A stretch of DNA of 64,000 bases from Halomonas aestuarii (GTDB taxonomy: Bacteria; Pseudomonadota; Gammaproteobacteria; Pseudomonadales; Halomonadaceae): positions 1,736,001 to 1,800,000 of the forward strand of contig NZ_CP018139.1 in the NCBI RefSeq assembly GCF_001886615.1. The letters are read 5' to 3'. The notes beneath the pieces are model-generated. The model ran no database searches and had not been told where the DNA came from. It saw nothing but the letters and a program-made list of their open reading frames with translations. Numbering within the stretch: the first letter of the stretch is position 1; every line of letters starts with the position of its first letter. This document shows, piece by piece, positions 3,716 to 6,376 of this stretch. The position numbers and the translations under genes were made by a program.

Positions 3716-4564
3716 ATGCTTTCCTATCAGCATGCCTACCATGCGGGCAATTTCGCCGACGTTCACAAGCATCTGACGCTTTTTGCCGTCATCGACCATC
3801 TGTTACGTAAGAAATCATCTGTTACGTATATGGACACCCATGCCGGTCGTGGCCTCTACCCCCTGGCGGCCGAGGAGACGTCGAGGCTGCAGGAGTACCG
3901 CGAAGGGGTCGCCCGGCTGTGGCAGGCCCGTGAGCGCCTGGGCGATGAGCCGCTGCTCGGCGACTGGCTGTCCGCTCTGGGGCGCGTCCAGTCCCGGGGA
4001 AGCGGGCTCGACCAGTACCCCGGTTCCCCCTGGTGGCTGTCGGACCGGTTGCGTCCGCAGGATCGGCTGATGCTCTTCGAACTCCATCCCGGCGAGCATG
4101 GCCATCTGGCCCGTCAGGCGCTGCCGGATAACGTGGAGCGCATCCATGGGGATGGGCTCCAGGGGCTGGTGAAGCGACTGCCGGTGCCCACGCCGCGTCT
4201 CTGCGTGCTGGTCGATCCCAGCTACGAGCGTAAGGCGGAGTACGTCGAGGTGGCCGAGGCCGTGCTCCAGGCCATGCGCAAGGCGCGCCACGCCGTGATG
4301 CTCGTCTGGTACCCCCTGTTGCCGGCGGGTCGCCATCTCGAGCTGCTGGAAGGGCTGCGGGAAGGGGGACTGCGCAAGATCTGGCGCAGCGAGCTGAGGC
4401 AGCGAGAGCCTGGGGGGGGCGAGCGCGGCATGTTCGGCAGTGGCATGCTGGTGATCAATCCGCCCTGGGGGCTCGATGAGCGCCTGGGGACCGCCATGGA
4501 GAGGATCCTGCCGATGTGGGGCGAGACCAGTCGCCACCGCGGCGACTGGTGGGTGGGCGAGTAG
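3716..4564 (+). CDS. rlmJ: 23S rRNA (adenine(2030)-N6)-methyltransferase
   Basis: 282-residue RlmJ-family enzyme (E. coli protein ~280 residues) that methylates A2030 of 23S rRNA using SAM. Visible family features are the N-terminal MLSYQHAYHAGNFADVHKH, the SAM loop MDTHAGRGLYPL near residues 42-53, the VDPSYE motif near 165 and INPPWGL near 249. The start is the ATG at 3716, which matches the conserved N-terminus; the in-frame TTG at 3692 adds non-conserved residues inside the preceding terminator zone. Codons for Gly-Gly near 4412-4419 form a run of eight G, but the frame is intact. The gene runs head-on toward mnmE across the repeat array. Confidence 0.93.
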   Translation: MLSYQHAYHAGNFADVHKHLTLFAVIDHLLRKKSSVTYMDTHAGRGLYPLAAEETSRLQEYREGVARLWQARERLGDEPLLGDWLSALGRVQSRGSGLDQYPGSPWWLSDRLRPQDRLMLFELHPGEHGHLARQALPDNVERIHGDGLQGLVKRLPVPTPRLCVLVDPSYERKAEYVEVAEAVLQAMRKARHAVMLVWYPLLPAGRHLELLEGLREGGLRKIWRSELRQREPGGGERGMFGSGMLVINPPWGLDERLGTAMERILPMWGETSRHRGDWWVGE

Positions 4565-4675
4565 GGGGGCTGCCTGGCGGCCAATGCGGACGCTGCCGAG
4601 GATCCCGCACGGCGGCCATCGGGTGAGCCGGCGCTTCAGCGCCGACGGCTGGGGTGCCCTGACCGGGCAATGACG

Positions 4676-4693
4676 TTACTTGCCGATGCAGAA
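4676..4693 (-). other. Third copy of the mnmE attB-like 18-mer
   Basis: Exact copy of the same 18 bases, a further 101 bp away. The flanking bases carry one substitution (4700 region) relative to the other copies, so this is probably an older duplicate. Confidence 0.6.
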
Positions 4694-4776
4694 ACTGCCA
4701 AAGATCTCCCCGGCAGCCATCGTGTGAGCCGGCGCTTCAGCGCCGACGGCTGGGGCGCTTAGTCCGGGCAATCGCG

Positions 4777-4794
4777 TTACTTGCCGATGCAGAA
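4777..4794 (-). other. Second copy of the mnmE attB-like 18-mer
   Basis: Exact copy of the 18-base mnmE end, 101 bp downstream (in the mnmE direction) of the genuine one. It lies in non-coding DNA, as an attL/attR scar or a tandem duplication would leave it. Confidence 0.6.
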
Positions 4795-4877
4795 ACTGCC
4801 GAAGATCTCCCCGGCAGCCATCGTGTGAGCCGGCGCTTCAGCGCCGACGGCTGGGGCGCCCAGTCCCAGCAATCGCG

Positions 4878-4895
4878 TTACTTGCCGATGCAGAA
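4878..4895 (-). other. attB-like 18-mer at the true mnmE 3' end
   Basis: The last 18 bases of mnmE (TTCTGCATCGGCAAGTAA on the coding strand) correspond to the segment of trmE/mnmE used as chromosomal attachment site by SGI1 and related integrative elements. The sequence is seen directly; use as an att site in this organism is inferred from the known target preference. Confidence 0.6.
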
Positions 4896-6248
4896 ACTGC
4901 CGAAGATCTCGCCCAGCAGGTCGTCCGCGCTGAACTCGCCGGTGATCTCGCCGAGGGCCTGCTGGGCATCGCGCAGGTCCTCGGCCAGCAGCTCACCGGC
5001 ACCGTGGCCGGCCAGCTGTGCCTCGCCGTTGCGCAGGGCGCTGTCGGCCCGGTCCAGCGCATCGAGATGGCGCCGACGGGCCGAGAAGCGGCCCTCGGTG
5101 GTGGCCGCGAAGCCCATCACCGACTTGAGGTGCTCCTTCAGGCTGTCGACTCCCGCGCCGCTCTTCGCCGACAGTCGGATCACCGGCCTCTCTGTGGAGG
5201 TGTCGAGGCCGGGGGATTCGTGGCTGGCGTCGATCTTGTTGCGCACCAGGGTCAGCCGCGAGGGATCCTGAAGGCGAGCGACGAACTCCGGCCAGATGGC
5301 CATGGGATCGATGGCGTCGGTGGTGGCGGCATCCACCATCAGCAGCACCCGGTCGGCCTTCTCGATCTCCTCCCAGGCACGCGCCACGCCGATCTTCTCC
5401 ACGGCATCCGGGGTGTCGCGCAGGCCGGCGGTATCGATCACGTGAAGCGGCATGCCGTCCAGGTGGATGTGCTCGCGCAGCACGTCCCGGGTGGTGCCCT
5501 CGATGTCGGTGACGATGGCGGTGTCCTGTTCCGTCAGCGCGTTGAGCAGGCTCGACTTGCCGGCGTTGGGTCGCCCGGCGATCACCACGCTCATCCCTTC
5601 CCGCATCAGGGCGCCCTGGCCGGCGGCGGCCCGCACCTCGGCAAGGTCGCTCTGGATACCGGCCAGCTTGCCGGCCACGTGCCCGTCGGCGAGAAAGTCG
5701 ATTTCCTCCTCGGGGAAGTCGATGGCCGCCTCCACGTACATGCGCAGCTCGATCAGCCGCTGGACCAGCGTCTCCACCCGGCGAGAGAACTCGCCCTGGA
5801 GGGAGCGCAGCGCGTTCTCGGCGGCGCCCCGGGAGCTGGCCTCGATCAGGTCGGCGATGGCCTCGGCCTGGGCCAGGTCCAGCTTGTCGTTGAGGAAGGC
5901 CCGCTCCGAGAACTCGCCGGGACGCGCGAGCCGGGCGCCGAGCTGCACGCACCGCTCGAGCAGCAGGTCCATGATCACCGGCCCCCCATGCCCCTGCAGT
6001 TCCAGCACGTCCTCTCCGGTGAAGGAGTGGGGGCCAGTGAAGAACAGCGCGATGCCCTCGTCGATGACCTCCCGTGCGCCCCGGAAGGGGCCGTAATGGG
6101 CCTGGCGAGGGGCAGGGCAGTGGCCGAGCACGGCCTCGGCGATCGTCTCGCACGCGGGCCCGGAGACGCGGATGATCCCCACGCCGCCGCGACCCGGCGG
6201 GGTGGCCAGGGCGGTGATGGTGTCCTGATCATGGAGGCTGGCAGTCAT
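4878..6248 (-). CDS. mnmE: tRNA uridine-5-carboxymethylaminomethyl modification GTPase MnmE
   Basis: 456-residue GTPase that with MnmG modifies U34 of tRNAs. The N-terminal formyl-tetrahydrofolate-binding region starts [20 protein letters not shown] (~9-28). The inserted G domain has GRPNAGKSS at 225-233 (P loop), GTTRD at 251-255, DTAGLRDT at 272-279 and NKID near 340. The protein ends in FCIGK with the catalytically needed Cys. The ATG at 6248 matches the family N-terminus; a longer reading to 6914 runs antisense-frame through yidC. In Pseudomonas mnmG follows mnmE, but here the repeat array and rlmJ follow instead. Confidence 0.97.
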
Positions 6249-6330: not shown

Positions 6331-6354
6331 AGACCCCCGCCGGGGCGGGGGTCT
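6331..6354 (-). terminator. Hairpin terminator after yidC
   Basis: An inverted repeat of 11 bp (6331-6341 with 6344-6354), extremely GC-rich, lies 22 bp beyond the yidC stop. Only a short TTT follows on the minus strand, so termination efficiency is uncertain. It would separate yidC from mnmE transcription. Confidence 0.6.
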
Positions 6355-6376
6355 GTAGGCTCGGGAAGGGACCCGG

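Follow-up and report, generated by a model that had tools for sequence, protein, structure and literature searches.

A hairpin and the 3' end of mnmE repeated in tandem behind mnmE in Halomonas aestuarii and part of its genus

Behind the mnmE stop codon of Halomonas aestuarii, read on the mnmE strand, lie three head-to-tail 101-bp units, followed after 10 bp by the stop codon of the convergent gene rlmJ. Each unit consists of a spacer of about 24 nt, a GC stem-loop and a linker, and ends in a copy of the final ~40 nt of mnmE. Units of this kind occupy the same place in 23 of 87 genomes of the genus, in the same order and always in the forward direction. We consider it somewhat more probable than not that the array is an old tandem repeat, which arose from one tail-flanked hairpin insertion and was driven by slippage or unequal recombination. 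The features lie in a 64,000-nt stretch of contig NZ_CP018139.1, called the window here:

4878..6248, minus strand: mnmE, tRNA modification GTPase, 456 amino acids (Pfam MnmE_helical, TrmE_N and MMR_HSR1; from the ORF list)
4878-4917, minus strand: 3'-terminal 40 nt of mnmE, from which the tail copies derive
4777..4877, minus strand: unit 1, adjoining mnmE; spacer, hairpin 4829-4851, linker, intact tail copy 4777-4816
4676..4776, minus strand: unit 2; spacer, hairpin 4728-4750, linker, tail copy 4676-4715 with one silent change
4575..4675, minus strand: unit 3, distal and decayed; hairpin 4627-4649 intact, tail diverged and without a stop codon
4565..4574, no strand: residual gap of 10 bp from the array to the rlmJ stop codon, comparable to the gap of 3-31 bp seen in most relatives that lack the array
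3716..4564, plus strand: rlmJ, 23S rRNA methyltransferase, convergent with mnmE (Pfam PF04378)

The stem-loop of the unit reads GTCGGCGC-TGAA-GCGCCGGC, and the hairpin sequence GCCGGCGCTTCAGCGCCGACGGC is present in all three units (at 4627, 4728 and 4829). Tandem Repeats Finder reported one array at this place (4593-4919, period 101, 3.2 copies, 90% matches) with a score of 524, the next best tandem array in the window scoring 91. An 18-mer search, whose query differed from all three copies at two bases and which allowed three mismatches, confirmed the three exact minus-strand copies of TTCTGCATCGGCAAGTAA described in the first-pass annotation, at 4676, 4777 and 4878 and spaced exactly 101 bp apart; the same search gave no match in 100 shuffles of the window. 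The copy at 4878 is the end of mnmE itself, so that the extra tails number two intact and one decayed. The fourth, diverged unit of that annotation is present as unit 3, with its hairpin intact and its decayed tail at about 4575-4614. The repeated tail, given there as 18 bases, is a shared stretch of about 40 nt in which the 18-mer is contained, and the intact units do hold the SGI1-type 18-bp attB sequence that had been pointed out.

Units 1 and 2 differ at five positions, four of them in the spacer, and both of their tails are intact; the single silent difference in the tail of unit 2 (TTT/TTC) is real. Compared with unit 1, unit 3 differs at 14 of 41 tail sites and at none of 20 hairpin sites. 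Recent duplication had been offered there as one possibility, and the array is indeed tandem and in part recent; units 1 and 2 are nearly identical, and the tail of unit 3 has decayed. A coding role of the unit was rejected by reading the frames, an ATG being in frame with the copied tail in units 1 and 2 of genome G000 and out of frame in G074.

At E <= 0.001 the array region matched a single place in the genome. Elsewhere in the 3.54-Mb genome GCCGGCGCTTCAGCGCCGACGGC gave no match at up to two mismatches and one match at three, and no known RNA family matched over the array. The RNA family search also returned a chance miRNA match within rlmJ and a sub-threshold RsmY match (25.4 bits against a cut-off of 57) at 6331-6361, in a GC hairpin beside a yidC-like gene; the latter is probably just a hairpin. 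A search of 4400-5100 on both strands for an intrinsic terminator (GC stem and T run) found none. The array (4575-4877) is situated about 4.5 kb from dnaA (9368; gene named by eye from the ORF list), and therefore probably close to the origin of replication, a region that may have a raised copy number and much recombination.

In a search of 90 genomes of the genus, one per species, 87 matched, and the region downstream of mnmE was taken from all of these. At least one extra tail follows mnmE in 17 of the 87 (18-mer, up to four mismatches), and the addition of diverged units gives the 23 carriers, among which the arrays of G049, G050, G012 and G079 were classed by eye and G013 and G027 qualify only at up to six mismatches. 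G063 and G082 gave no tail match, and G010, which is outside the 87, has no array by eye. A count of units per strain had been suggested as a check; with one genome per species it gave one to four per array, varying between species. Units are alike within a genome, and their length differs between species, from 77 to 103 bp, with units of 43 bp in G077, G068, G038 and G080 and a shorter remnant in G012.

The stop-to-stop gap between mnmE and rlmJ has a median of 16 bp in the 60 array-free genomes in which rlmJ was found, being 3-31 bp in 47 and 50-1015 bp in 13. With the ends of the last units set by hand, the gap after the last array tail is 6-23 bp in 13 of the 16 measured and 52, 60 and 88 bp in the other three. 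The picture is one of precise insertion of n copies of hairpin plus tail behind the mnmE stop codon. In eight of the 87 genomes, four of them array carriers, rlmJ was not found within the downstream stretch examined (175 to 8086 bp). G038 (L139), G080 (L157) and G068 (L167) keep the array at mnmE with rlmJ absent within about 8 kb, an RpiR-like regulator gene (named by eye) coming next; the array thus travels with mnmE and not with rlmJ.

In a family search of 275 genomes, 31 of which gave no match at all, at least two tails at up to one mismatch were present in 16 of the 90 genomes of the genus versus two of 185 others. One of the 16, G079, has its second tail copy on another contig. Its array (L236, L239) is broken at a tail, with the parts on two contigs; the broken ends carry AGTGCC and GGCACT and, read by eye, look as if an insertion sequence had entered a unit. 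A different insert, similar in G076 and G054 (L028, L123), which belong to different subclades, consists of 180 bp of GC-rich DNA between mnmE and rlmJ, and its motif is absent from the window at up to three mismatches. A covariance model of the unit, run over 91 loci, revealed no new array: its matches were mnmE's own tails, the known arrays and their remnants (19 of the units had been used to build the model and match by construction), the tails of G176 and G189, and six weak matches elsewhere with E values of 0.03-0.78. The consensus fold of the model pairs the tail part only, since hairpins of the two types are out of register with each other, and so gives no support for the hairpin. A literature search, short of full text, found no earlier report of this array. 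The unstable repeat, which is scattered over the genus, looks like an old one that has grown in place, and not like the scars of visiting mobile islands.

The history of the array was followed on an mnmE tree of 87 genomes and five outgroups, calculated without the last 45 nt of the gene; the tree is of mnmE alone and has weak nodes. Array presence requires 16 changes on it, versus a mean of 20.7 in shuffled data, and 4 of 1000 shuffles were as low. Hairpin type (X1 or X2) requires three changes among 21 carriers, a number reached in 3 of 2000 shuffles. Both characters show phylogenetic signal, and gains or losses have been numerous. As bounds, a single origin entails 23 losses and gains without any loss entail 16 events; the signal favours descent with frequent loss, with regain possible.

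On the tree, the X2 carriers G053 and G087 are placed near the X1 carriers G000 and G019. In its hairpin core the X1 carrier G086 has an identity of 0.82-0.92 with G074, G000, G046, G049, G027 and G019, although at mnmE third positions the identity is only 0.54-0.57; with G030, G081 and G035 it is 0.70-0.76. This likeness of X1 cores across deep mnmE distances may reflect either constraint or transfer. We compared flanks in a subset of 8 of the 13 X1 genomes and 13 of the 60 array-free genomes with rlmJ found, in which X1 carriers resembled one another in the mnmE and rlmJ ends beside the arrays no more than other genomes did. In that subset there was no sign of a recent transfer that included long flanks.

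Within arrays, 19 unit pairs from six genomes differ at 18 of 380 hairpin positions, 3 of 95 in the 5' flank, 12 of 218 in the linker, 78 of 778 in the tail and 80 of 348 in the spacer. That the hairpin is steadier than the tail comes mainly from G000 (0/60 versus 30/122) and is also observed in G074, G046 and G053; in G019 (6/60 and 12/123) and G034 (10/120 and 17/246) there is no such difference. A stem of 6-9 bp is found at a conserved place in 17 of the 18 units tested. Its score was reached in at most 10 of 200 shuffles, which kept single-base content only, for 16 of these units, in 21 for the unit of G049 and in 68 for that of G081, where the stem is broken. Between G053 and G038 there is one compensatory stem pair, read by eye and without statistics.

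The tails behave differently from one genome to the next. Elsewhere in the genus they show substitutions or are without a stop codon, the latter in at least one unit of G074, G046, G034, G035, G013, G077 and G068. Together with the changed tail and unchanged hairpin of unit 3, this speaks against the suggestion that selection generally maintains a functional FCIGK end. We also ranked each tail by its closeness to its own mnmE among those of 86 other species, a test run without G049, G050, G012 and G079. Its ranks are inflated either way by close relatives, and its row for unit 3 of G000 is an indel artefact. Eight of the 19 genomes tested have at least one unit whose tail matches its own mnmE unusually well, with 0-3 of the 86 others as close (G060, G052, G019, G000, G035, and one unit each of G053, G046 and G077). 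For G030, G087, G038, G080 and G034 the number of others as close is intermediate (6-25 of 86), and for G074, G081, G086, G027, G013 and G068 it rises to 30-85 of the 86. Because closeness is mixed, refreshing of tails by recombination with mnmE is a partial feature and not a general one.

We infer the following course for a repeat grown in place. One ancestral event would have put a hairpin segment, bordered left and right by the mnmE tail, in the narrow space that separates mnmE from rlmJ. The direct repeats would then allow expansion, contraction and loss of the array, through replication slippage or unequal recombination, with an intact mnmE end left in every case, as the pattern suggests; copies are head-to-tail, alike within a genome and variable between genomes. 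In some of the genomes, recombination with the live mnmE would refresh the tails of units close to it, and distal units would tend to decay, a pattern visible in G000 and G019. The stem-loop may serve as an RNA 3'-end or as a buffer structure between the convergent genes, and the founding step could have involved a recombinase with a longer core. Several points count against this course. Loss of the array should be easy, so that selection or regain would be needed to explain why 23 lineages still have it, and the likeness of the G086 hairpin to other X1 hairpins across deep mnmE distances could mean transfer. The six genomes whose tails show no special closeness to their own mnmE, the dependence of the steadier hairpin mainly on G000, and the weak nodes of the tree belong here too.

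The first-pass annotation took the ladder of tails either for scars of repeated integration and excision, by islands of the SGI1 type that use the 18 bp at the mnmE end, or for a duplicated landing pad. The intact unit holds the 18-bp attB that this reading calls for, and the site is a used one: PMC9035990 describes SGI1-related elements integrating at the last 18 bp of trmE, also as tandem islands, and one such element at trmE in Halomonas meridiana. Integrase genes are indeed situated just behind mnmE in Modicisalibacter and Marinobacterium. The Modicisalibacter xianhensis island (L044/G275, G275:C16:29036-52238) has about 23 kb between its two tails, and its Phage_integrase gene is separated from mnmE by about 170 bp; the right end of the island is an 18-mer with 14 of 18 bases as in its own mnmE, with a different preceding base and AT-rich DNA before it, and rlmJ follows within about 20 bp. 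In a Marinobacterium MAG (L090/G276) a Phage_integrase gene lies just behind mnmE, and a second tail on another contig (16/18, preceding base different) is probably the right end of the island. What the compared islands have in common with mnmE is limited to the 18-mer, and their borders are AT-rich, at 68% and 70% AT over the final 60 nt, whereas the units share about 40 nt and have a GC-rich spacer. When the 22 nt that precede the 18-mer are compared with the genome's own mnmE, 12-22 of them match in 34 units (unit 3 of G000 left out), and at least 16 do so in 31. Clean excision, moreover, leaves no scar. The islands bounded by the 18-mer that were to be looked for at mnmE did not appear in 90 genus genomes. 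Away from mnmE, the exact degenerate 18-mer occurred only in G049 and G077, in unrelated DNA with no hairpin or longer tail beside it; a reversed-pattern control gave no match, so these two chance matches are slightly above what the control suggests, and two of the 90 genomes (G063, G082) had no match of any kind. Nor was an SGI1-like integrase found near the arrays: five Phage_integrase proteins of this genome, compared by phmmer with the ORFs of the loci, matched only L044 and L090, which places an integrase behind mnmE in two loci among the 80 matches listed (other genera and this one) and in none of the genus, where 86 of 87 loci offer at least 1.4 kb of downstream DNA, although a very distant integrase could escape such a search. 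Scars of SGI1-type islands were rejected on repeat length and borders and are very improbable here. It is at least as improbable, at a slightly lower level, that the array is a selected decoy or landing pad, in which extra attB copies divert incoming islands from mnmE. The copies adjoining mnmE often keep the 18-mer intact, but no element was found in any array, several units lack the stop or the core, and the oldest tail here has decayed where its hairpin has not. Even without extra copies, mnmE is restored when an island integrates at its end. The array may still act as a passive pad.

A more serious competitor, unlikely as we judge it, is a non-autonomous, site-locked mobile unit, in which the hairpin and a ~40-nt mnmE tail were repeatedly and precisely inserted at the mnmE end by a recombinase with a core longer than that of SGI1-type elements. 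It agrees with the precision with which units are inserted where most relatives have a gap of just 3-31 bp, with the patchy presence of the array (16 events if gains alone are allowed), with the two hairpin subfamilies, whose X2 carriers G053 and G087 are placed near X1 carriers, and with X1 hairpins that are alike across deep mnmE distances when their flanks are not. Further agreement comes from the family members G176 and G189 (L237, L238, L240, L241), which carry a 1.45-kb insertion between mnmE and a second tail of ~52 nt. The insertion encodes a Fic/DOC-family protein (DUF4172, Fic and a MarR-like end by Pfam) and contains no integrase, and a hairpin directly precedes its distal tail. On this evidence one may go further and suppose, as a rather doubtful extension, that hairpin and mnmE tail form a minimal unit of ~45-100 bp that is moved in trans, locked to the mnmE end and repairs the gene it enters, with longer relatives that carry cargo such as this Fic gene. 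Against mobility stand the absence of any recombinase found for the unit, the absence of units elsewhere in the genus by tail search or by the X1-type hairpin pattern, and the phylogenetic signal in array presence and hairpin type. Units of 43 bp are also too short for site-specific excision. A phage or plasmid origin was rejected, there being no match in plasmids and no exact-pattern match in viral contigs. Four phage-collection records match only the mnmE-end stretch of the query; two of them, OR845421 and OR850969, are small and unannotated and are perhaps host DNA. As to the founding step of a repeat grown in place, the Fic insertion shows that the family does contain insertions bounded by tails and free of an integrase. 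That a dispersed REP-like repeat lies here by chance is hardly credible. The core of the unit is palindromic, as in such repeats, but the array has one locus in this genome, and a REP family was rejected for this genome on that ground. Across the genus, the X1 hairpin pattern, which covered X1-type hairpins and matched in 6 of 90 genomes, and the unit model over 91 loci placed units only behind mnmE, bar the six weak matches.

The end of mnmE is known as a hot spot for integration, and a genus-wide repeat that resembles a series of attB sites can lead island-finding programs astray. The array also offers natural attB spacings for testing the site preference of integrases. Its record of gain and loss over 87 species is a usable model of a gene end copied into a tandem array, and of a hairpin that recurs in units whose gene tails decay.

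Among known systems, VNTR-type tandem repeats that include part of a gene end have the same head-to-tail order, likeness within a genome, copy number that varies between lineages and distal decay; the present array differs in holding the 3' end of a housekeeping gene and a hairpin across a genus, always at one locus. REP and BIME elements are likewise small, palindromic, extragenic and found between convergent genes, but they are dispersed, whereas the array is at one locus and its unit carries a coding tail. The Fic-gene insertion of G176 and G189 resembles the array in being free of an integrase and in its distal end, a hairpin followed by an mnmE tail repeat; it differs in its gene of about 1.2 kb, its ~52-nt tail repeat, its other hairpin sequence and its single copy. 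SGI1-related elements at trmE/mnmE, as described in PMC9035990, share with the array the mnmE 3' end as target, direct repeats with the 18-bp att sequence and a tandem arrangement, and the array is set apart from them by having neither integrase nor cargo, a repeat of ~40 nt in place of 18, and a GC hairpin in place of AT-rich borders.
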